A DNA stretch of 32,582 bases from a virus. The translations under genes were made by a program, and so were the position numbers. This document shows, piece by piece, positions 395-31,655 of the stretch (the stretch's first letter is position 1; every line of letters begins with the position of its first letter). The notes beneath the pieces are model-generated. The model was not told where the DNA came from, ran no database searches, and worked only from the letters and a program-made list of their open reading frames with translations. The stretch spans positions 1 to 32,582 of the IMG/VR virus record IMGVR_UViG_3300048925_000646. One strand, given 5' to 3'.

Positions 395-427
395 TAAGTA
401 TTCTTAAATCAGGTGGTTAGTCTTTAT

Positions 428-964
428 ATGAAACATCGTGTTGACGTCATGATTTCCGAAGAGGAAGTCAAAACCCGAATTGCCGAGTTGGGCCGTGAAA
501 TCACCGAACACTACCGCGACAGCGGCAGCGAAATGGTGCTGGTTGGATTGCTGCGCGGTTCTTTCATGTTTATGGCTGACCTGTGTCGCGCCGTGGACGT
601 GCCGCACGAAGTGGATTTCATGACTGCCTCCAGTTATGGCAACGGCATGTCTACCACCCGTGACGTTAAGATTCTCAAAGATCTCGACGAAGACATTCGC
701 GGTAAAGATGTGTTGATCGTCGAAGACATTATCGACTCCGGCAATACGCTGAGCAAAGTGCGTGAAATCCTGCAACTGCGTGGCCCGAAATCTCTGGCCA
801 TTTGTACCCTGCTGGATAAACCCGAGCGCCGCGAAGTGGACGTAAAAGTTGAATACGTCGGCTTCCCAATCCCAGATGAATTCGTTGTCGGCTACGGCAT
901 CGACTACGCCCAGCGTTATCGCCATCTGCCGTATGTTGGTAAGGTTGTGATGCTGGACGAGTAA
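428..964 (+). CDS. hpt: Hypoxanthine phosphoribosyltransferase
   Basis: This cytosolic purine-salvage enzyme transfers phosphoribosyl from PRPP to hypoxanthine (and less well guanine) to make IMP or GMP. The 178-residue product matches the enterobacterial Hpt length. It shows the PRPP-binding loop [14 protein letters not shown] (about residues 95-108), the flexible-loop region around [16 protein letters not shown], and the C-terminal [18 protein letters not shown] block. I chose the ATG at 428 because the protein then begins [10 protein letters not shown] like E. coli Hpt, with AGGTGG 11 nt upstream. A GTG at 413 would add five residues over that ribosome binding site. A promoter and palindrome precede the gene and a terminator follows it, so it appears monocistronic. 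In E. coli can follows hpt; here it is replaced by AT-rich unknown sequence and then the prophage. Confidence 0.97.
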
Positions 965-15347: not shown

Positions 15348-16163
15348 TTAATTATATTTTTCTGATAATTCCCTCATATATGGCTCTACTTCTGGGCGTA
15401 GCATATGATTCTTCATCGAGTCAAGAAATGTTATGGGGGTTTGAATTACATTTACTTTGGATTCATTTTTCCTAATAAGAGTCATCCCTTTGCAGATTTT
15501 TAAATATTCCTTGATTAATATTTTCTTGCGACCTCTAAGTAAATCACCATTGAAAGCTATAATATGAAAAATTGCAGCTCCAATGACTATTTGTTTCACC
15601 GAGTATTCTGATGATTCGAAATCGCCCCATGAAATCCTACCAAAAAATGGGTTTGCGTAACCAGAAGGATCAACTTCAAGTTGATGACCATATTTTTCAA
15701 TTTCTAAGGCTGTCAATTTTAATGGTTTAAACAATCCAGCAGAGATAGCAAAACCAGAGAAATCAGAACTTTTCCCTAAAATAACATCTTTGTATTTATC
15801 AAAGAAGAATAATTTCTTCTCACTAGCCCTGGATGAATTGAATGCTACTTTGAGTAACCAGCGTGAAAGTAAACTATAATTGTAATTAATATTAACATGT
15901 TCTTTTAAGAAACACTGTGTAAAAAAACCAGATTGCTCGAGAATGTTTTTGGCATAACCATCCAGTTCGCATAAAACCACACTATTACAATGAGAGCAAA
16001 CATCTTTTATTTTTGCTTCGCCACTTATTATTTTTTGGGGTTTTTCTTGCCATCCGATAGTTTTTCCAGAACCGGTGCTATATTGATACTCATAGATAAA
16101 AGATGGGAGTATGTGTTCCCTAGTCATTTTCCCCTCTTGGCCACAATATATGCAAGTACTCAC
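15348..16163 (-). CDS. HNH-endonuclease-like protein of the S-V island
   Basis: This 271-residue protein has an N-terminal HNH-type zinc fold: C4-x2-C7, then REHILPSF with H17, and C56-x2-C59-N60. The remaining 200 residues (mixed, rich in Phe, Lys and Ile) are unknown to me. It may be a DNase acting on incoming DNA, but the final His of a classic HNH is not obvious, so activity is uncertain. The start is a GTG at 16163 with a strong AAGGAG five bases upstream. The gene is AT-rich, unlike the flanking P2 genes, and lies between S and V at the position of P2 orf30. It is downstream of, and on the same strand as, the HEPN-like gene, about 270 bp away. Confidence 0.75.
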   Translation of the reverse strand: MSTCIYCGQEGKMTREHILPSFIYEYQYSTGSGKTIGWQEKPQKIISGEAKIKDVCSHCNSVVLCELDGYAKNILEQSGFFTQCFLKEHVNINYNYSLLSRWLLKVAFNSSRASEKKLFFFDKYKDVILGKSSDFSGFAISAGLFKPLKLTALEIEKYGHQLEVDPSGYANPFFGRISWGDFESSEYSVKQIVIGAAIFHIIAFNGDLLRGRKKILIKEYLKICKGMTLIRKNESKVNVIQTPITFLDSMKNHMLRPEVEPYMRELSEKYN

Positions 16164-16289
16164 TTCATCTCCTTAACTAAGATATGATTACTAAAAAACG
16201 GTGTAATATTATAGCAGTTGATAAATCGCATTAGTAGTTATAGTTTAATGCATAAATTTTTCTACTAGCAGTAAATATCTTTAGAAGAA

Positions 16290-16333
16290 AGCATCATCCC
16301 TGATGAAAATTCAATAACATCCGCTCCTGACAC
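16290..16333 (-). repeat. Cassette-edge repeat, partial copy between the two island genes
   Basis: Read on the minus strand GTGTCAGGAGCGGATGTTATTG, followed by ATTTTCATC, lines up in register with the second half of the copies at 29472 and 32077. The first half of the repeat is not recognisable here. It ends about 130 bases before the HNH-like gene. Confidence 0.45.
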
Positions 16334-16430
16334 GTAACAGACCCTATGCAAAATCATCAAGCTCGCTTAAAGAGAGAAGAGGGTATTGGTTTTAAAGAGG
16401 ATGAATGGCTCAATTCATTAGTATGCATCT

Positions 16431-17429
16431 TCAATATTTTAAAGCAACTTTCTTAGGGCGCGTTACCTTTTTCTTTATTAAACTGCTTTCTCCTTTACGC
16501 CCATTAATAACATAATGCACTTCGCAAAAAACTCTATACTGCGAAAAAAAATCTGAAAGTGCTATATGCAGTTCACGGGCCCATGTAAGACGCTCAACTT
16601 CCTTATCAAAAAAATGATGTATAAACCCAGTATTTTCTCTAAGATGAAAAATATTATTTCTAAATATCCGGAGTGGATTCGAATGTTCTTTCATCAACTT
16701 TCCGATGCTATCTGAAATTGGTAATAGTTCTTTAAAATCTCTAGGACGTTCATTGTCGAGTAAGACTCGCATGTTTAAACTTTTAAATCCTTCGCAGACC
16801 ACACCTAAAAAACCTAACCATGTAGAAAGATAAATCCCCATGTCAAATTCTTCGCTCTGGCTCAAATGGCCATTCTTCGTCATTTTTTGGTTGAGCTTAT
16901 TATAATTTTTAAACATAAGATCAGCCGTTTCGAAATAATGAATTTGGAGTGTTAATACACGGTCGTGATTGCGAATTGGGAGCATATCCTCAGGGGTTCG
17001 ACAATCTGTATCTATAGCGTAAGTATGTGGGACATTAGCAAAATAATAAAGATCATGATCTGGAAAAATCAGCTCTCCATCATCTAGGGCTTTATTTAAA
17101 TGTTCAGCGACATCACCAATATTTCTGAAACCGTAATCTGTTAGATTCTTCCCTGCAAAGTTGGTTAACCACCAAGAATTAAACCCTCCGACCTCACCTC
17201 GCTCCCCAAAATCAAAATCAACGCTCCCGGAATTTAGAACTACCCTGCATCCAGCCCCATGTTTATAATATTTGACACCACCATCTAACTCACCAGTACT
17301 GGGCATATTAGATTTAATCCATCCATAACAACTTGATGGCATTTGAATGCCAGACCGATGCATTAGCTTTAAAGCAACTTGGACATTATCTTGAAAGTCA
17401 ACAATCAAACGATAAAGATTATCATTCAT
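16431..17429 (-). CDS. DUF6896-like / HEPN-like fusion protein of the S-V island
   Basis: This 332-residue protein has two apparent parts. Residues 1-125 resemble DUF6896 proteins (GELDGGVKYYKHGAGCRV, SVDFDFGERGEVGGFNSWWL). Residues 155-305 are predicted mostly helical and contain R257-N-N-I-F-H262, an RX4H motif of the kind found in HEPN ribonucleases. A basic tail follows (RKGESSLIKKKVTRPKK). HEPN RNases often act in toxin-antitoxin or abortive infection systems, so an RNase effector in phage competition is a reasonable inference, not proven. The gene is AT-rich, lies downstream of tail gene S and upstream of the HNH-like gene on the same strand, and is flanked by the cassette-edge repeats. 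The ribosome binding site is weak. Some other helical domain remains possible. Confidence 0.7.
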   Translation of the reverse strand: MNDNLYRLIVDFQDNVQVALKLMHRSGIQMPSSCYGWIKSNMPSTGELDGGVKYYKHGAGCRVVLNSGSVDFDFGERGEVGGFNSWWLTNFAGKNLTDYGFRNIGDVAEHLNKALDDGELIFPDHDLYYFANVPHTYAIDTDCRTPEDMLPIRNHDRVLTLQIHYFETADLMFKNYNKLNQKMTKNGHLSQSEEFDMGIYLSTWLGFLGVVCEGFKSLNMRVLLDNERPRDFKELLPISDSIGKLMKEHSNPLRIFRNNIFHLRENTGFIHHFFDKEVERLTWARELHIALSDFFSQYRVFCEVHYVINGRKGESSLIKKKVTRPKKVALKY

Positions 17430-22298: not shown

Positions 22299-23150
22299 TT
22301 AGCAGTCGGTGAAATGGGCTGCATCACCCTTGCCGCCGCCGCTGGAAACAGGGCGCTGCGTGTAGTTCTGCGGGGCGGATTTCTCCAGCTTGCCTTTCAG
22401 CGTGCTGAACTGTTCGCGGTCATCTTTCGCGGTTTGTTCCAGCGCGTTGAGGCGTTCCGTCAGTGAAGTTTGCAGCGCGGACAGCTTTTCATCAGTGGCT
22501 TGCAGGCCGGTTTCGACGTGTTCTACCACCACTTCCACGGCGTCATGGACGTCTTTGAACCGGGCATCATCCGAGGCCGATTTGATGGAAAGCAGTTGTT
22601 TCACGCGGGAGAACAGCGACGGCGCAGCCGGTTTCTCTTCTTCAAACTCAAACACCGTTTCTTCGGCGGCGGTAAAGAGGTTTCCGGCATCCTGTTTGCG
22701 GCTCGCCAGCGGGTTTTGCTGTGCCTTCGCGCTGAACTGCAGGTACTCGGTGCCGAGGCTGGCGGGGCTGTCGGTCACGGCCAGGCCGATCAGGTAGGCT
22801 TTGCCGGTGTCGGAAAACGAGGGGTTCACTTCGATTGAGGTGTAAACCTTCTGGCGGGCTTTCACCATTGAGACTAAATCCGGGGTCGGGTCGATATCGG
22901 CATACAGTGCCAGCTTGCCTTTCAGCGCACCGTCCGCCACTTCTTCGGCGTAAACGCCGGTGACATCGCCGTACATGCGGAACGCACTGTCAGGGAAATA
23001 GCCCTTGATGTGCTCCATGTTGATGCGTGCCCCGTAGACCTTCGGGTCATAGGTCGCCGCCATCTGTTCAATCCAGTCGCGGGTGATTTCGCGTCCGTCA
23101 GTGGTTGCCCCTTCGGTACAGATGCGAAAGCGCTTTGCTTTTGTTGCCAT
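22299..23150 (-). CDS. O: Capsid scaffold and maturation protease gpO
   Basis: The start at ATG 23150 gives 283 residues, with GGAG eight bases upstream and the P2-like N-terminus MATKAKRFRICTEGATTDGR. A longer open frame upstream has no homology. The N-terminal half is the serine protease. The P2 triad (D19, H48, S107) corresponds here to D18, H47 (INMEHI) and S105 (YTSIEV). The C-terminal half is the helical scaffold (EVVVEHVETGLQATDEKLSA). It is the first gene of the first leftward late operon. Confidence 0.95.
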   Translation of the reverse strand: MATKAKRFRICTEGATTDGREITRDWIEQMAATYDPKVYGARINMEHIKGYFPDSAFRMYGDVTGVYAEEVADGALKGKLALYADIDPTPDLVSMVKARQKVYTSIEVNPSFSDTGKAYLIGLAVTDSPASLGTEYLQFSAKAQQNPLASRKQDAGNLFTAAEETVFEFEEEKPAAPSLFSRVKQLLSIKSASDDARFKDVHDAVEVVVEHVETGLQATDEKLSALQTSLTERLNALEQTAKDDREQFSTLKGKLEKSAPQNYTQRPVSSGGGKGDAAHFTDC

Positions 23151-23229
23151 GTGTCGGACTCCGGTCGGTGTGTGCTTCTGAGGAGTCCCAGTTTCCCGAC
23201 AGACGCCCGACACCGCCAGCCGATGCGGG

Positions 23230-23254
23230 TTGATGCTCGATGGCACAACGTGGG
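23230..23254 (-). promoter_or_regulatory. Putative Ogr site of the O late promoter
   Basis: The minus-strand sequence CCCACGTTGT (23254-23245) is shared with the V and FI sites, in the dyad TGT-N12-CAA. The centre is about 88 bp before the O ATG, giving a leader of about 30 bases. It could also serve P on the plus strand, but the spacing there would put the start at the P ATG, so the site for the P promoter is unclear. Confidence 0.65.
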
Positions 23255-23294
23255 CAGCGCGAAAAGCCGCAGGCCAGCCGGTAACGTTGCAACC

Positions 23295-25055
23295 ATGAAA
23301 ACGACAAACTCAACCCTCATCAGCGACCCACGGCGACAGGCGGCTCTGCTTTACTGGCAGGGGTTTTCTGTCCGCCAGATTGCGGAGATGCTGACCCAAA
23401 AAATACCGACGGTGCAGAGCTGGAAAACCCGCAATGCCTGGGACAACGTCGCACCCATTGCCCGCGTGGAGTCCAGCCTGGAAGCGCGCCTGATTCAGCT
23501 CACCACCAAAGACGTCAAAGGGAATGCCGATTACAAGGAAATGGAGGCGTTAGGCCGGTTGATGGAGCGCCTGGCACGGGTGAACCGCTACGGTCAGAGC
23601 GGCAATGAGGTGGATTTAAACCCGAACGTTACCAACCGCAACAAAGGCGACCGCAAGAAGCCGACCAAGAACTATTTCAGCGACGAAGCCCTTGAGAAGC
23701 TGGAAGATATTTTTCTGGCTCAGTGCTTCCAGTATCAGCGCGTGTGGTATGACGCAGGGCTTAAACACCGCATCCGCGACATCCTGAAATCCCGCCAGAT
23801 TGGCGCGACGTTCTTCTTTGCACGGGAAGCGTTATTGCGTGCCCTGGCAACCGGGCATAACCAAATTTTCCTGTCAGCCAGTAAAACCCAGGCGTATGTG
23901 TTCCGGGAATACATCATTCAGTTTGCCCGCCAGGTTGATGTTGAGCTGACCGGCGACCCGATTGTGATCGGCAACAACGGCGCAAAGCTGATTTTCTTAG
24001 GCACCAACTCCAACACCGCCCAAAGCCATAACGGCGACCTGTACGTGGACGAAATCTTTTGGATCCCCAACTTCCAGAAGCTGCGCAAGGTCGCCAGCGG
24101 CATGGCCTCACAGGAGCATCTGCGCACCACCTATTTCTCCACGCCGTCGGCGCTGACGCACGGCGCGTATCCGTTCTGGTCAGGCGAACTGTTCAACAAG
24201 GGGCGGGAAGATCGCAACGACAGGATTGAACTGGATATCGGCCATCACACCCTGGCAAAGGGGCGGCTTTGTGAGGATGGACAGTGGCGGCAAATCGTCA
24301 CCATTGAGGATGCGTTAGCCGGGGGCTGCAACCTGTTTAACATCGACACGCTGAAACAGGAGAACAGCGCCGAGGATTTCCGCAACCTGTTCATGTGTGA
24401 GTTTGTTGACGATCAGGCGTCGGTATTTCCGTTCGCCGAGCTGCAGCGCTGCATGGTGGAAAGCGCGGAGGAATGGCAGGATTTCAGCCCGTTCGCCGTC
24501 CGTCCGTTTGGTTATCGCGCCGTCTGGATTGGTTACGACCCGTCGCACACCGGCGACAGCGCTGGCTGTGCCGTGGTGGCTCCGCCGCTGGTGGACGGGG
24601 GCAAGTTCCGCGTGCTGGAACGCCACCAGTGGAAGGGCATGGATTTTGCCGCCCAGGCGAAAAGCATTGAGGAGTTAACGAAACGCTACTGCGTGGAATA
24701 TATCGGCATTGATGCCACCGGCATCGGTCAGGGCGTGTTCCAGCTTGTCCGGCAGTTCTTCCCCGCTGCAATGGAAATCCGCTACAGCCCGGAAACGAAA
24801 ATGGTGTTGAAAGCGAAAGACACCATCACCTCCGGCCGCCTGGAGTACGACACCAACCATAAAGACATCACCTCGTCATTCATGGCGATCCGCAAAACCA
24901 TGACCGCCAGCGGAAGCCGTTCCACCTACGAGGCCAGCCGCAGCGAGGAAGCCAGCCACGCGGATGTCGCCTGGGCAATTATGCACGCATTGCTCAACGA
25001 ACCCCTGACCGCTGCCAGCGGCGGCCAAAGCCCTAACATTCTGGAGTTTTATTAA
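23295..25055 (+). CDS. P: Terminase large subunit gpP (ATPase)
   Basis: At 586 residues this is the P2 gpP family packaging motor, close to the P2 length of 590. An N-terminal helix-turn-helix region (RQIAEMLTQKIPTVQSWKTR) precedes the ATPase, which has a Walker A-like ILKSRQIGATFFFAREALL and a Walker B-like DLYVDEIFW. The nuclease-like C-terminal domain begins at WIGYDPSHTGDSAG and includes IGIDATGIGQGVF. I chose ATG 23295 because the protein then starts like P2 P; the frame is open further upstream, antisense to O. It runs divergently from O. Confidence 0.96.
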   Translation: MKTTNSTLISDPRRQAALLYWQGFSVRQIAEMLTQKIPTVQSWKTRNAWDNVAPIARVESSLEARLIQLTTKDVKGNADYKEMEALGRLMERLARVNRYGQSGNEVDLNPNVTNRNKGDRKKPTKNYFSDEALEKLEDIFLAQCFQYQRVWYDAGLKHRIRDILKSRQIGATFFFAREALLRALATGHNQIFLSASKTQAYVFREYIIQFARQVDVELTGDPIVIGNNGAKLIFLGTNSNTAQSHNGDLYVDEIFWIPNFQKLRKVASGMASQEHLRTTYFSTPSALTHGAYPFWSGELFNKGREDRNDRIELDIGHHTLAKGRLCEDGQWRQIVTIEDALAGGCNLFNIDTLKQENSAEDFRNLFMCEFVDDQASVFPFAELQRCMVESAEEWQDFSPFAVRPFGYRAVWIGYDPSHTGDSAGCAVVAPPLVDGGKFRVLERHQWKGMDFAAQAKSIEELTKRYCVEYIGIDATGIGQGVFQLVRQFFPAAMEIRYSPETKMVLKAKDTITSGRLEYDTNHKDITSSFMAIRKTMTASGSRSTYEASRSEEASHADVAWAIMHALLNEPLTAASGGQSPNILEFY

Positions 25056-25057
25056 CT

Positions 25058-26089
25058 ATGAGTAAGCGCAAATTCCGCAAGACGGCACAAACCATCGTCA
25101 CAGCAACGGCACAGCAGACCAGCGGCGCGGAGGCGTTCAGCTTTGGCGACCCGACGCCGGTATTAGACCGCCGTGAAATCCTGGATTACATCGAATGCAC
25201 GGGGAACGGTCAGTGGTATGAGCCGCCGGTCAGCTTTGACGGACTGGCTCGCACACTGCGGGCGGCGGTGCATCACAGTTCATCGCTGTATGTGAAACGT
25301 AATATTCTGGCCTCGACCTTCGTCCCGCACCCGTTGCTGTCACAGCAGGAATTCAGCCGGTTCGCCCTGGATTATCTGGTGTTCGGGAATGCGTTTTTAG
25401 AAGTGATCCGCAACCAGCTCGGCGACGCCGTGGTGATGAAAACCGTGCCTGCAAAATATGCCCGCCGAGGGGTTGAGCCAGATACTTACTGGTTTGTGCA
25501 GCAGTGGAAGGACGCGCATCAGTTCGAAGCCGGTAGCGTGTTTCATCTGATTGAACCGGACATTAATCAGGAGCTGTACGGCCTGCCGGAATACCTCAGC
25601 GCCCTGAACTCAGCCTGGCTGAATGAGGCCGCCACGCTGTTCCGCCGCAAGTACTACCAGAACGGCGCGCACGCCGGATATATCCTGTACATGACTGACG
25701 CGGCACAAAGCAGCAGTGATATTGACCAGATGCGTAAAGCGATGCGGGACACAAAAGGGCTGGGCAATTTCCGCAATCTGTTTATGTACGCGCCGAACGG
25801 TAAGCCAGACGGGATCAAGATTCTGCCGTTAAGTGAAGTCGCAACCAAAGACGATTTCTTTAACATCAAGAAAGCCAGCCAGAACGATTTGCTGTGCGCG
25901 CACCGCGTGCCGCCTCAGATGATGGGCATCATTCCGGAGAACAGCGGCGGATTTGGGGATTCAGTGAAGGCGTCGCAGGTGTTTGTCCGTAACGAACTGA
26001 CGCCGTTGCAGGAACGGTTCAAAGAGTTGAATGGCTGGTTTGGGGAGAAAGTGATCAGATTCACTTCTTATGAGCTAACGCCGGAGTAA
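25058..26089 (+). CDS. Q: Portal protein gpQ
   Basis: This 343-residue P2 gpQ family portal forms the dodecameric DNA entry vertex. Matches include FSFGDPTPVLDRREILDYIE, LDYLVFGNAFLEVIRNQLGD and HRVPPQMMGIIPENSGGFGD. It starts two bases after P with GGAG upstream. In P2 the cos site follows soon after Q; here about 3.1 kb of AT-rich foreign sequence intervenes. Confidence 0.96.
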   Translation: MSKRKFRKTAQTIVTATAQQTSGAEAFSFGDPTPVLDRREILDYIECTGNGQWYEPPVSFDGLARTLRAAVHHSSSLYVKRNILASTFVPHPLLSQQEFSRFALDYLVFGNAFLEVIRNQLGDAVVMKTVPAKYARRGVEPDTYWFVQQWKDAHQFEAGSVFHLIEPDINQELYGLPEYLSALNSAWLNEAATLFRRKYYQNGAHAGYILYMTDAAQSSSDIDQMRKAMRDTKGLGNFRNLFMYAPNGKPDGIKILPLSEVATKDDFFNIKKASQNDLLCAHRVPPQMMGIIPENSGGFGDSVKASQVFVRNELTPLQERFKELNGWFGEKVIRFTSYELTPE

Positions 26090-26334
26090 CTCTGAAAGTA
26101 ATGCGGTTTGAAACTTTAAGTACTCACTATTGGCGAATACTTAAACTGTGAAAATAATTGAAAAGTATTTTTGTTGGGGTAACTAACTATGACCGTCCAA
26201 TAAGAACTTTCAAAACTTACGGCTATATAAATTTTTAAGAGCCACTTTACTTTGTTTTCATTTACCTCTTTTCTTTTAAAAATGAAACTATCATTATAGT
26301 GTTATCCAAAATCAACAACCAAAGTGGTTAAATA
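26090..26334. other. AT-rich leader between Q and the OLD-like gene
   Basis: No gene is visible. The composition falls abruptly from the GC-rich Q gene to AT-rich sequence within a few bases of the Q stop, marking the edge of the insert. A promoter for the next gene must lie here; TTGAAA near 26158 and TATAGT near 26296 are possible boxes but are not correctly paired. Confidence 0.4.
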
Positions 26335-28164
26335 ATGAACGATTTCAAGCTCAATGAGAGGATAAGGACATTAAGAAAAGGTATGGAGAAGGGCGAGTTT
26401 GAACCTTGTATCCGTCATATACGTTTTCCTTATTTCAAAAATCTTGAATTGAATGCCCGGATAGATTTCGAGTTTCCTATCACGGCTTTAGTTGGGCAAA
26501 ATGGAACTAATAAAAGTTCAGTAATCAAAGCATTATTTGGTTGTCCAAATGGAAAAAGCATTACTCGTTATTGGTTCACAACTGATACTGATGATGTACC
26601 CGATTTAAAATTAGAAGACGGTTCCTCACTCAAGCCAAGATATATCTATGGTTATAAGAACTCTGAGGGACGGGTTGTTGAGATATTACAAACAAGAATT
26701 AACGCTACAAAGCAAACTTTAGACTATTGGGAAACTAGCAGGCCCTTGGTAAGCGACCAAATGGAAAATATTTCAGATGTGTCTGGTGCCGAGAGTAATG
26801 CAACGCGTTGGAGAAAGATTTCTAAAGGTCTAGTATTCTTAGATTTTAGGTCGGAAATTAGTGCTTTTGATCGATGTATGTACCATTCAGATTTTAAGAT
26901 CCGAAGAAAAAAAGATGGTAAAAGAATTACTAAGCAAGATTATATTAGAAGCAAAACTAAATATATTAAAAAAGCTTTCGACGAAAAACTCACGTCTCTT
27001 CCTTTATGGGGAGGGGAAACAATCGTTAAGAATATAACGCTAAAAAAAGATTTAGTGATGGCAGTTTCATATATACTAGGTCGCTCTTATAAAGATATTA
27101 AGTATTTAGAACATAGGCTATGGGGAGTTAGAGGGGGAACGGCTCAACTATCCACCGATAAACTGAATTATACTGAGGCATATGCAGGAAGCGGTGAATT
27201 TGCTGTAGTTTCTTTAGTTTTGCAGCTTTTTAATGCTAAAGAGCGCTCCCTTATTCTACTTGATGAGCCCGAGGTTTCATTACATCCAGGCGCTCAAAAA
27301 AGAATGATGGAGTTTCTTTATAATCTCGTTGAGAAAAATAAGTTTCAAGTTGTGTTGTCAACACATTCTCCAGTATTAGTTAGTTTTCTTCCTAAAGAAG
27401 CTGTGAAATTATTTTTATTCGAAAGTGATTCTGAGGGTGTGAAAATTGCTCAGAGTATATCCGCCGACGAAGCTTTCCTCGAGTTAGGCCACGATATATC
27501 TAAGAGAACCATTATAGTTGAGGACAGGCTTGCTAAGGAAATTATCGCCAAAGCAATTAGTTGTAATACTATGCTTGCAACATCTTTCAATATTGACTAT
27601 GTCCCTGGTGGCTCAGAAACAATCCTAAGCAAACATTTGCCGAGCCATGCAGCAGTAAATCGAGAAGATATAATATTCCTTTTGGATGGAGATAAAAATA
27701 AAGGCTTAAAACCCTTAAAAATAGATTCAATTGCAGATGCTGATTTAGTTAATAAAATGAAAGAGCATTTTGGATGTGAATTGGTAGTTAATGCTAGTGG
27801 TAGCAATGGAAGTGTAAATAGTGCTGAACTAATTAAAATGAGAAAGTCTGTTTTAGAATATGCACTAAAAAGAGTACTATATCTTTCTTTTAATACACCT
27901 GAAGAACTCTTGATTCAGCATTGCTGCTCAAATGAACAAACTCATATGATAAATTCTAAGAATTGGGAAGCAACCGATGTTGATAAATATAAAAAGCAGA
28001 TTAGATTATTAACCCAACACCATATGGGTAAAGAAAGTGTTGATGGTGAAGAAATATTTTTTATGCAGAAGCATTTAATATCTAAGCTAGATGTGAACTC
28101 AGAGGTTATGATTTCAATTAGAAAGGTAATTACTCAAGCAATAGATCGTGGTATCATAAGCTAA
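26335..28164 (+). CDS. OLD-like ATPase with TOPRIM nuclease domain
   Basis: This 609-residue protein is built like OLD-family nucleases. The ABC-type ATPase half has Walker A G54-Q-N-G-T-N-K60-S-S, signature GSGE at 285-288, Walker B LILLDEPEVSLHP (D310-E311) and the H-loop STHSP at 342-346. The TOPRIM half follows, with the acidic residues E396 (TIIVEDRLAK) and D451-x-D453 (FLLDGDKN), then a helical C-terminal region. OLD proteins are metal-dependent DNA nucleases used in phage exclusion (P2 Old) and in Gabija. The Walker A has Asn in place of the usual Gly before Lys. No helicase or reverse transcriptase partner is nearby. The next gene, 23 bases on, is a DNA methyltransferase, so the pair may form a restriction-modification-like unit. 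Confidence 0.85.
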   Translation: MNDFKLNERIRTLRKGMEKGEFEPCIRHIRFPYFKNLELNARIDFEFPITALVGQNGTNKSSVIKALFGCPNGKSITRYWFTTDTDDVPDLKLEDGSSLKPRYIYGYKNSEGRVVEILQTRINATKQTLDYWETSRPLVSDQMENISDVSGAESNATRWRKISKGLVFLDFRSEISAFDRCMYHSDFKIRRKKDGKRITKQDYIRSKTKYIKKAFDEKLTSLPLWGGETIVKNITLKKDLVMAVSYILGRSYKDIKYLEHRLWGVRGGTAQLSTDKLNYTEAYAGSGEFAVVSLVLQLFNAKERSLILLDEPEVSLHPGAQKRMMEFLYNLVEKNKFQVVLSTHSPVLVSFLPKEAVKLFLFESDSEGVKIAQSISADEAFLELGHDISKRTIIVEDRLAKEIIAKAISCNTMLATSFNIDYVPGGSETILSKHLPSHAAVNREDIIFLLDGDKNKGLKPLKIDSIADADLVNKMKEHFGCELVVNASGSNGSVNSAELIKMRKSVLEYALKRVLYLSFNTPEELLIQHCCSNEQTHMINSKNWEATDVDKYKKQIRLLTQHHMGKESVDGEEIFFMQKHLISKLDVNSEVMISIRKVITQAIDRGIIS

Positions 28165-28187
28165 TATTAAGTTGTATGGAGATGGGC

Positions 28188-29234
28188 ATGAATAAAATCA
28201 AAGTGTTCGATTTTTTCTCTGGGTGCGGTGGCACCAGTCAGGGCTTTAAACAAGCAGGGTTCGACGTAGCCTTTGGTTTGGATTTTGACCATGATGCAGC
28301 TTGCTCATTTAAACTTAATTTTCCTGATGCTGAGTTCATTAATGCTGATATCAGAACTCTTGAAAATAATGTTATTGAGCATTTATTTAATGTTAATGAT
28401 TCCTCATATACTCTTTTTTCAGGGTGTGCGCCGTGTCAGCCATATTCTAGGCAAAATTCTAATAAAAAGGAAGGCGATCCTAGATTAGATCTTTTAAATG
28501 AATTTGGCCGCTTTGTGCAGCATTATCTTCCTGATTTTGTTTTTGTTGAAAATGTACCTGGAATGCAAAAATTTAATGAAAACGAGGGTACGTTTAAGTC
28601 TTTTATTAGTATGCTTTCTCTGCATGGATATAATGTAGACTTTAAAGTACTCCCAGCTGCATGGTATGGTGTGCCACAAACTCGTGAAAGGTTGGTATTA
28701 CTTGCTGCTAAGAATCACCAAGTTACCTTACCCACTCAGACACATGGGCTCGAGAACTCACCATACTCTACAGTCAGGGATTGGATAGGTTTTTTGCCCC
28801 CTATCTCTGCTGGAGAAACCCATCCGACAGTTTCAGATCATGTTTCAGCAAAGCTGTCGGATGTAAATCTTCAACGTATAAAAGCTACAGCAGAAGGTGG
28901 CGGTCGAGAGTCTTGGCCAGATCATTTAATTCTGGAATGTCATCGAACGCACAAGGGGCATTCTGATGTTTATGGACGTTTATATTGGGATAAGCTGGCT
29001 AGTGGTTTAACTACACGATGCATTAGTTATTCTAACGGTAGGTTTGGTCACCCTGAACAGAATAGAGCAATATCTGTAAGAGAGGCTGCCTGCTTACAAA
29101 CATTCCCATTAGACTATAAGTTTACAGGTGCATTGAATTCAAAGGCGAAACAAATCGGTAATGCTGTCCCTCCCAAAATGGCTGAGGTTATTGGTAATCA
29201 GATACTTCATATTATGAGACAAGTGCCCCTCTAA
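28188..29234 (+). CDS. DNA (cytosine-5) methyltransferase
   Basis: This 348-residue C5-MTase has its motifs in order: I (FDFFSGCGGTSQGF), IV with the catalytic Cys (SGCAPCQPYSRQ), VI (FVFVENVPGM), VIII (QTRERLVLL), a short target-recognition region (about residues 185-280), IX-like (SVREAACLQTFP) and X (QIGNAVPPKM). It methylates cytosine in an unknown DNA site. I chose ATG 28188, preceded by GGAG with good spacing; two in-frame ATGs lie 6 and 12 bases upstream. It follows the OLD-like gene closely and has similar AT-rich codon use, so they probably form one operon. It may protect host and phage DNA from the OLD-like nuclease, or it may be an independent phage anti-restriction enzyme. Confidence 0.93.
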   Translation: MNKIKVFDFFSGCGGTSQGFKQAGFDVAFGLDFDHDAACSFKLNFPDAEFINADIRTLENNVIEHLFNVNDSSYTLFSGCAPCQPYSRQNSNKKEGDPRLDLLNEFGRFVQHYLPDFVFVENVPGMQKFNENEGTFKSFISMLSLHGYNVDFKVLPAAWYGVPQTRERLVLLAAKNHQVTLPTQTHGLENSPYSTVRDWIGFLPPISAGETHPTVSDHVSAKLSDVNLQRIKATAEGGGRESWPDHLILECHRTHKGHSDVYGRLYWDKLASGLTTRCISYSNGRFGHPEQNRAISVREAACLQTFPLDYKFTGALNSKAKQIGNAVPPKMAEVIGNQILHIMRQVPL

Positions 29235-29246
29235 AGGGGGCTTTAC
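29223..29246 (+). terminator. Hairpin terminator at the end of the methyltransferase gene
   Basis: GCCCCT pairs with AGGGGGC around the stop codon region, followed by TTTAC and, a little later, CCCTTTTT. It is moderately convincing as the operon end. Confidence 0.5.
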
Positions 29247-29270: not shown

Positions 29271-29471
29271 TTGCCTCCTCGCGCGCAATGTTACCCGCCT
29301 GCCCGCTTCTGACTTAGCTCACCGTTTTTAATGCATGACCCAGATCGCCGCAAAGCACGGCTAGAATGGCGATAAGATGTTTTTTGATCCTTTCGGGATC
29401 ATGCAAAACCATGCGCACAATGCATGCATGGCTCATCCATATAACTGCGCTCGATACACATCACTTGTTTC

Positions 29472-29716: not shown

Positions 29717-30397
29717 TTAAATTTGATTGTTATTAATAGCTAATTCCTCAAGCTCAGTATCTATATTAAAATAAGAAGCTGCCATTATTTCAGCATCATC
29801 CTCTATGTCGTCGTCTTCAGGATTTCCTTCATAGAAATCATCATCTTCAACAGCTAGTCCTTGAGCTTTACTAAAACTATTGACAGATAGTTGCTCTAGT
29901 TTGAAGAATTCCATGCTGAAATTTCCTTTAGCACTATCATTAATTACACTATAATAAACTATAATATCCCTTCCGTTTTGATGATGTTCATACGCAATAT
30001 GGTCTTCAAAAACATCTCTATTAGGATGTACGAACAAATAATTTTCTTTAGCAAAAGGTTCGGGACTCAAATTAAAGTTTGCAGTAAGGAAATCTGTACG
30101 CCTTCCTTTCATCTTCATGTTGCATCTTTTGCAGGATGCAGCAAGGTTTTCGAGCTCAAACATATGCTTCACATACTGATGCTTAGGAAGAATATGTTCA
30201 ATATCGATAACAAAATTGAACTCCCCATGAAAACTTCGCAAGCAGTAGCAGCATACAAACCTTTGCCTTGATTTCAGATGCTCTTTAATTTTTGTTTTCA
30301 ACTCACTTAGGCAGTCATCTTTCCATGACTTGTGCCCCTTTTTGACACTTGTGCTTATCAAAGTAAGTTCATTTTCAGAAAATTGAAAATTAGCCAT
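29717..30397 (-). CDS. ptuB: PtuB-like HNH nuclease (Septu)
   Basis: This 226-residue HNH endonuclease has zinc knuckles C49-x2-C52 and C89-x2-C92. The catalytic stretch is D65-I-E-H68-ILPK, and N93 follows the second knuckle (CNMKMKG). The C-terminus is strongly acidic (EDDDFYEGNPEDDDIEDDAE). In Septu systems PtuB is the nuclease effector held in complex with the ATPase PtuA; infection triggers DNA degradation. The start overlaps the end of the ATPase gene by eight bases with AAAGGAAA upstream, so the two are coupled. The acidic tail could serve as a partner-binding or self-inhibiting element, which is inference. HNH nucleases of other two-gene defence systems look similar, so assignment rests on the pairing. 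Confidence 0.82.
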   Translation of the reverse strand: MANFQFSENELTLISTSVKKGHKSWKDDCLSELKTKIKEHLKSRQRFVCCYCLRSFHGEFNFVIDIEHILPKHQYVKHMFELENLAASCKRCNMKMKGRRTDFLTANFNLSPEPFAKENYLFVHPNRDVFEDHIAYEHHQNGRDIIVYYSVINDSAKGNFSMEFFKLEQLSVNSFSKAQGLAVEDDDFYEGNPEDDDIEDDAEIMAASYFNIDTELEELAINNNQI

Positions 30398-31655
30398 TGT
30401 GGTTTCCTTTCAATTTTTTCAAAATTTCAATAACACCACTTAGAAAATCTTTCTGATTGGAGTCGAATGATGCTTCACGCATGGCGAAAATTGCGTTATA
30501 AGCAACATGATAACTCACCTTTTTATCCGAAAACTGCTTGAGCAAACCATTACAATACTCTGAAAGATATCTATTTTTTGGTGTTAAAACACCAAACAAC
30601 TCATAGTAAATCTGCTCAATATTGTTATCGTTTTTCTTATGATTAATTGGAACTAATGTTGAGTTTTCAACACTTACAAGAGAAATGCTTTTATTATACG
30701 CTCCATCTTCCATGGCAATTAATGGCGAGTGTGTTGCTATTATAGTTTTGACTTCAGAATAACCTATGAAACCTCTCAAAAAACCAATGTAATCACGCTG
30801 CCATTTGGGATGTAAACTATTTTCTGGCTCATCAATTAATATCACCCTAGGGAGTCTATACCTTTCGCTTTCCTCAAGGAATCTATCAATAAATAAACCA
30901 AGCGATAAGATATGTAACTCTCCTGAGCTTGCATGATAAATAGGGAAGTATCTACCACCTTTTCTGAAGAAAAACTCGCTGCTAAATAGATCCGAAGACC
31001 TAAAGTCCCCCATCCCTTTGACCAAAGACTTTTCTTTTTTTAAATGGTCACTATATTCTTGATTTTCCCGATGGTGCGACTCGTAAGATAGATGAAAATC
31101 ATGTGATTCCTCAAGAAATAGCGAAATTTCCTGAGCAAATCCCGGGGTGATTTCTTTTCTTTGTATAGAATTATATCGAAAGTATTCATTAGCATAAGAA
31201 GAATTTACTAAAGTGTATTTGGTTTCTTTATCGTATGCATTGGAACTTTCCTCTACTTTATATAAAGGAATTCTTCTTACTAAAAAATCATTATCAAATC
31301 CGATATGACTTAAAATATAAAAAATCTTTCTAGGATTATGACTTTCAAGTAATCGAGAAAAATAGGAATTTATCACCCTTTCAAAGTAATTTCCAAAAGG
31401 ATGTTGTCTTGCTCTTAGTGAATAATAATCATGTTTACTTGTCCTACGAACTTGCGGGAAAGGATTAATCAAAGCATTTGAAATGAGTGCTATACAGTAT
31501 TCATGCTTGTGCTGTTCAAAAAAATTAAGTAGGTACCTTGTTTTCCCTTTACCATTCTCTCCAAGAATAACTGTTATATCTTCCATTTTAAGATCCTTAT
31601 CATAATAATTAGCCCATGACAGTTCAAATAAAATCAACTTGACTAATAAACACAT
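30390..31655 (-). CDS. ptuA: PtuA-like ATPase (Septu)
   Basis: This 421-residue ABC-type AAA ATPase has Walker A G32-E-N-G-K-G-K-T39, signature SSGE at 243-246, Walker B VILIDEPENSLHP (D275-E276) and the H-loop ATHSP at 307-311. A coiled insert of about 180 residues (rich in Glu, Lys, Ser and Tyr) lies between Walker A and the signature. This is the layout of PtuA in Septu. There is no TOPRIM domain, unlike the protein at 26335-28164. The gene is AT-rich and followed by ptuB and a strong terminator. No reverse transcriptase is present, so it is not the retron-linked form. Confidence 0.82.
   Translation of the reverse strand: MCLLVKLILFELSWANYYDKDLKMEDITVILGENGKGKTRYLLNFFEQHKHEYCIALISNALINPFPQVRRTSKHDYYSLRARQHPFGNYFERVINSYFSRLLESHNPRKIFYILSHIGFDNDFLVRRIPLYKVEESSNAYDKETKYTLVNSSYANEYFRYNSIQRKEITPGFAQEISLFLEESHDFHLSYESHHRENQEYSDHLKKEKSLVKGMGDFRSSDLFSSEFFFRKGGRYFPIYHASSGELHILSLGLFIDRFLEESERYRLPRVILIDEPENSLHPKWQRDYIGFLRGFIGYSEVKTIIATHSPLIAMEDGAYNKSISLVSVENSTLVPINHKKNDNNIEQIYYELFGVLTPKNRYLSEYCNGLLKQFSDKKVSYHVAYNAIFAMREASFDSNQKDFLSGVIEILKKLKGNHNG

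Follow-up and report, generated by a model that had tools for sequence, protein, structure and literature searches.

An OLD-type ATPase/TOPRIM gene lying next to a C5 cytosine methyltransferase (MTase) gene in a P2-like phage raises the question of whether the two genes form one functional module and, if so, what such a module might do. The whole stretch of DNA analysed, hereafter the window, comprises the 32,582 bases of virus record IMGVR_UViG_3300048925_000646. A preliminary description of its sequence had proposed a restriction-like pair, composed of a complete OLD-type protein and, 23 bases downstream on the same strand, a complete C5 MTase. The two genes and the adjacent phage region are placed as follows.

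26335–28164, + strand: OLD-type ABC ATPase/TOPRIM nuclease gene, 609 amino acids, PHROG 3940 (open reading frame and domain matches)
28188–29234, + strand: C5 cytosine methyltransferase gene (domain match; start by homology, alternative ORF start at 28176)
29285–29440, no strand assigned: cos-like region (placed only by synteny with phage ENT90)

The terminase (23010–25055) and portal (25058–26089) genes of the window are 74–76% identical at the DNA level to those of Erwinia phage ENT90 and its relatives. In ENT90, a cos-like region is located immediately 3′ of the portal gene, and the equivalent stretch in the window is found at 29285–29440; thus, the OLD–MTase cassette (26090–29240) is cargo inserted between portal and cos. 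The P2 cos 19-mer had no match in a search allowing three mismatches. The position is that of the P2 cos-proximal defence hotspot, where variable cargo lies between gpQ and gpA, next to cos (gpA falls outside the record), and the same site has been described as a P2 hotspot for antiviral genes (PMC9122126). The GC content is 35% in the OLD gene and 40% in the MTase gene versus 58–61% in the phage structural genes, which bears out the initial remark that both genes are AT-rich within a GC-rich phage. Across the cos-like region from the cassette, and convergent to it, lies a Septu-like pair (29717–31655, − strand) that comprises a PtuB-type HNH protein of 226 amino acids and a PtuA-type ATPase of 421 amino acids, whose genes overlap by 8 bases (PADLOC matches 1.6e-63 for PtuB and 9.8e-63 for PtuA).

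The family of the OLD protein, PHROG 3940, is annotated as being of unknown function. In Pfam, the protein matches AAA_15 (4.7e-21) and AAA_21 (3.3e-20), and its active-site elements can be assigned by comparison of 39 related sequences.

26494–26520, + strand: Walker A GQNGTNKSS, residues 54–62 (G54, N56, G57, K60, and S62 invariant in 39 sequences)
27184–27198, + strand: ABC signature AGSGE, residues 284–288 (invariant in 39 sequences)
27250–27288, + strand: Walker B and D-loop LILLDEPEVSLHP, residues 306–318 (D310, E311, P312, E313, H317, and P318 invariant)
27520–27525, + strand: TOPRIM E396 (metal A) and D397 (invariant in 39/39)
27685–27693, + strand: TOPRIM D451-G452-D453 (metal A; invariant in 39/39)
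27895–27903, + strand: T521-P-E523, candidate metal B motif [T/S/D]-x-E (E523 in 38/39)
27991–27993, + strand: K553, candidate catalytic lysine (invariant in 39/39; counterpart of BpOLD K562 and P2 Old K550)

The protein bears DEPE..LHP at residues 310–318 and STHS at residues 342–345, so that the full set of ABC ATPase motifs (Walker A, signature, Walker B, and H-loop) is combined with the metal A glutamate and DxD of a TOPRIM domain, as in the OLD family. All ATPase and TOPRIM catalytic residues singled out at the outset, E396, D451, and D453 among them, proved to be invariant in the 39 relatives. The metal B motif [T/S/D]-x-E has been described for OLD nucleases (PMC6755086, PMC7049728). 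At the position +4 from the TOPRIM glutamate, where other OLDs have a metal B acid, 38 of the 39 relatives carry alanine (Ala400); together with the invariant D397 beside E396, this alanine marks the MTase-linked OLD subfamily, and replacement of the acid makes nuclease activity of the protein less than certain.

An AlphaFold2 model of the OLD protein (pLDDT 86) has its best PDB match in the Thermus scotoductus OLD structure 6P74 (E 5.4e-14), which is also the nearest solved sequence, with a TM-score of only 0.35–0.40 and an rmsd of 16, so that domain orientation is not comparable. Further structural matches are retron and Septu ATPases and GajA. According to PADLOC, the protein is nearest to HEC-04 and to the retron I-B ATPase-TOPRIM, in matches far from full-length, while the type II restriction endonuclease model REase_II is absent from its best 25 matches, so that no known restriction endonuclease family is matched among these. 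Judging from the fold and the active-site residues, the OLD protein is predicted to be an ATP-gated TOPRIM nuclease.

The MTase ORF (28176–29234) matches Pfam DNA_methylase at 9.6e-60 and scores over the cut-off of TIGR00675. Its homologues begin at the ATG of position 28188, which has GGAG upstream of it, and it is this start that leaves the 23-bp gap after the OLD gene noted in the preliminary description. The protein carries the full set of C5 MTase motifs, PCQ, ENV, and QxRxR among them, and the solved MTases nearest to it are DNMT1, HaeIII, and HhaI. With its motifs intact, it is probably an active DNA methyltransferase.

28431–28439, + strand: catalytic PCQ (motif IV; 65 of the 66 partner MTases have it, and the remaining one is truncated)
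28698–29048, + strand: target-recognition region (TRD), signature TxEGGGRxxWPxxLxLxCHxxHKGHSDVYGRLxWD...SYSNGRFGHP

Whether the two genes belong together was addressed by a survey of OLD homologues in IMG/VR, GTDB genomes, and E. coli genomes, with a Pantoea genome used as the centre for the search of relatives. The survey yielded 67 loci, or 43 OLD clusters at 90% identity, reaching down to 30% identity with the window protein; a search with one divergent OLD as the query gave no matches. A C5 MTase is present in the locus in 42/42 clusters with readable flanks and is directly adjacent in 39 of them, including L040, in which the 3′ half of a frameshifted OLD gene abuts the MTase; the one cluster without a readable flank (L041) ends at a contig edge. 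In L072, a transposase separates the two genes, and in L051 and L062, the MTase lies 1.6 and 4.6 kb from the OLD gene, at the head of a GHKL/response-regulator operon. In 15 control OLD-like loci of the HEC-04 and P2 Old families, two of which are partial, no C5 MTase was found within some 1.5 kb (Fisher p = 3.7e-11 for 42/42 versus 0/15). Chance adjacency of the two genes is ruled out by the homologue survey and these controls, and the pairing would have been discredited had the homologues occurred mostly without an MTase, which is the reverse of what was found. The gene order is OLD then MTase in 26 clusters, convergent in 11, and MTase then OLD in five. In E. coli, the ATCC 8739 versions of the two genes occur in the identical 32 of 5426 genomes, within prophages that include Rac; a second clade is present as a pair in eight more genomes, and a third in about 10. 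OLD and C5 MTase genes thus constitute a conserved module, shared by dozens of prophages that are only distantly related, and the loci show the linkage of an MTase gene to a predicted nuclease gene that is expected of type II restriction-modification. As a separate observation, in two distant genomes (L050 and L051), the OLD–MTase locus was seen by eye to lie beside pheS or a few kb from pheS/pheT/ihfA, a neighbourhood that may be a recurrent chromosomal insertion site.

The history of the pair points in the same direction. On the OLD tree, at least seven changes of gene order have occurred with the linkage retained, and the MTase-linked OLDs form one group versus eight non-MTase OLDs (support 95, with long branches). 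The partner MTases are divided over more than one region of the MTase tree, with at least three changes, two of which are forced by well-supported branches. Since the OLDs form one clade and the MTases do not, C5 MTases were exchanged or re-paired rather than lost, and the pairing itself endured. Identity between OLDs is correlated with identity between their MTases (Mantel r = 0.75, n = 40, 0/5000 permutations), and the MTases evolve more slowly: the window and L016 share 40% identity in OLD and 65% in MTase, and the window and L028 share 40% in OLD and 72% in the TRD. L051 and L052 have OLDs that are 84% identical and MTases that are only 54% identical. Finally, a broken OLD gene accompanies an intact MTase gene in L040, L079, and E. 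coli EC11, and no case of an intact OLD with a broken MTase was found among the surveyed loci; this asymmetry of decay comprises three loci, in any of which a sequencing error is possible.

MTases of the same kind are found with other partners. A profile search with the MTase gave 80 loci, of which 30 contain OLD, 30 contain HEPN_MAE_28990 together with GmrSD_N/DUF262, 16 contain GHKL ATPases, and four are partnerless. An orphan MTase is not a suitable reading of the last four because each lies near a contig end, and a partner would fall beyond the edge. The target-recognition signature is common to the OLD-, GHKL-, and HEPN-linked MTases. The GHKL partner matches the PADLOC model REase_II at 9.4e-91, and the combination of a GHKL ATPase and a cytosine methylase is accepted as a form of restriction-modification (PMC2292703); a response regulator was recognised in two of the 16 GHKL-linked loci. 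Moreover, the portal-side site of P2-like phages is occupied either by OLD (the window, L062) or by HEPN and DUF262 (L018, L180), each with a similar C5 MTase. It can tentatively be suggested, at somewhat less than even odds, that OLD–MTase is an OLD class not recognised before and, at the same time, part of a broader scheme. In this scheme, C5 MTases of a single kind, which share a recognition signature, would provide the self-mark, and effectors unrelated to one another (OLD/TOPRIM, HEPN and GmrS, or GHKL, accompanied or not by a response regulator) would be swapped in and out beside them at shared hotspots in prophages.

Two further gene combinations were encountered in these loci. The C5 MTase with HEPN_MAE_28990 and GmrSD_N/DUF262 (L135–L180, 30 loci, and L018) makes up another MTase-anchored candidate defence cassette. 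In L017, L051, L062, and L132–L134, operons combine a C5 MTase, a large GHKL ATPase, and a response-regulator protein; in L051 and L062, such an operon is adjoined by an OLD gene of the MTase-linked family.

As to what the module does, the preferred reading, to which we assign a probability of about 0.6, is that the cassette is a mobile antiviral system resembling restriction-modification, where the MTase marks self DNA and the OLD protein attacks, or is set off by, unmarked DNA. The MTase would methylate a particular site that contains cytosine, in the DNA of host and prophage alike, and the OLD protein would cut or degrade DNA without the mark, such as that of an incoming competing phage; methylation would thereby protect, and OLD, alone or with the MTase, would be the effector. 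This reading draws on the retention of the marker gene when the effector decays, the interchangeable effectors, and the persistent linkage, as well as on insertion into the hotspot between portal and cos and the REase_II match of the GHKL partner. The restriction-like role put forward in the preliminary description is therefore favoured, and that description is borne out in part; in it, the OLD protein would cut unmethylated DNA or sense the loss of methylation. OLD nucleases studied to date are mostly nonspecific, which is a point against an OLD protein that itself reads unmethylated sites. The alanine at +4 and the more distant MTases of L051 and L062 count against the preferred reading as well.

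The sequence could instead be read by the MTase, acting as a DNA-reading subunit that scans for its site and calls in or licenses a nonspecific OLD when the invading DNA is unmethylated or hemimethylated, as in Type I or BREX systems. The much stronger conservation of the target-recognition region than of OLD between the window and L028 would fit such an arrangement, and the service of one MTase type to three unrelated effectors is simplest if sequence reading resides in the MTase; the strongly diverged MTases that accompany the closely similar OLDs of L051 and L052 speak against a tight co-evolved interface, and we regard this version as unlikely. Somewhat less probable still is that OLD is an abortive-infection effector guarded by the MTase, directly or via host methylation, so that a toxic nuclease would be freed when the MTase fails or the mark is lost during infection, for example through phage anti-restriction proteins. 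Toxicity of P2 Old is seen in recBC cells (PMC7049728), an anti-restriction protein sets off PARIS (PMC9122126), and retention of the MTase while OLD decays suits a guard as well as it suits restriction-modification, but the variety of MTases that is tolerated speaks against restraint by direct protein–protein contact. That the genes are independent neighbours, a stand-alone OLD beside a prophage anti-restriction or orphan MTase, is highly improbable: defence hotspots do gather unrelated systems, as the Septu-like pair just past the cos region illustrates, but linkage in every readable cluster, across varied genomic settings and three gene orders, and in none of the controls is hard to reconcile with mere cohabitation.

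Among known systems, reviews list OLD classes 1–4 (alone, Gabija, retron, and PARIS), class 5 in archaea, and 10 further unnamed clades. The window protein shares with class 1 (P2 Old, T. scotoductus OLD) a single-chain ABC ATPase and TOPRIM architecture, the metal A residues E and DxD, and the best fold match 6P74, and P2 old occupies the same phage hotspot; unlike class 1, it does not stand alone, being always accompanied by a C5 MTase in the 42 readable clusters, it has alanine at the +4 metal B position, and its metal B glutamate and lysine are separated by 30 residues versus seven in T. scotoductus OLD and P2 Old. With class 2 (Gabija, GajA–GajB), it shares an obligate partner of an OLD effector and a C-terminal helical region between the metal B glutamate and the catalytic lysine, but the partner is a methyltransferase and not a UvrD-like helicase. 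Gabija itself was rejected, as no UvrD/PcrA/Rep-like helicase is found in the window, where the genes nearby are those of the portal, the MTase, and the Septu-like pair; nor is there a reverse transcriptase among these neighbours, as a class 3 retron would require, and class 4 (PARIS) does not apply because ATPase and TOPRIM are joined in a single 609-residue chain rather than encoded by separate genes. Classes 3 and 4 resemble the module in using an OLD-type effector in multi-gene phage defence. The GHKL (MORC/paraMORC) restriction-modification systems (PMC2292703) likewise link a C5 MTase, of the same type and with the same TRD signature, to an ATPase effector, which there is GHKL and not OLD/TOPRIM. 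The systems of Krishnan et al. 2020, as far as they are cited in PMC12839542, also place OLD-type ABC ATPases with nucleases in restriction-like operons. No description of an OLD paired with a C5 MTase was found in the literature searched, outside of which Krishnan et al. 2020 lies. An adenine MTase and an unlinked OLD of P. aeruginosa PAO1161 did not act together (PMC6945700).

What switches OLD nucleases is a standing question, and a form tied to methylation gives a defined, testable input. If the restriction-modification-like reading is true, restriction-like systems gain a member whose effector is an ATP-gated TOPRIM protein and which occurs in laboratory strains, E. coli ATCC 8739 being an example.

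Two other regions of the window deserve mention. AT-rich cargo (34–37% GC) at 15348–17429 (− strand), within the tail gene block, encodes a 271-residue protein that weakly matches HNH_5 as well as a 332-residue DUF6896 protein and is possibly a second accessory site. At 413–964 (+ strand), the sequence resembles by eye a bacterial hypoxanthine phosphoribosyltransferase gene, which suggests a host flank at the left end of the record.
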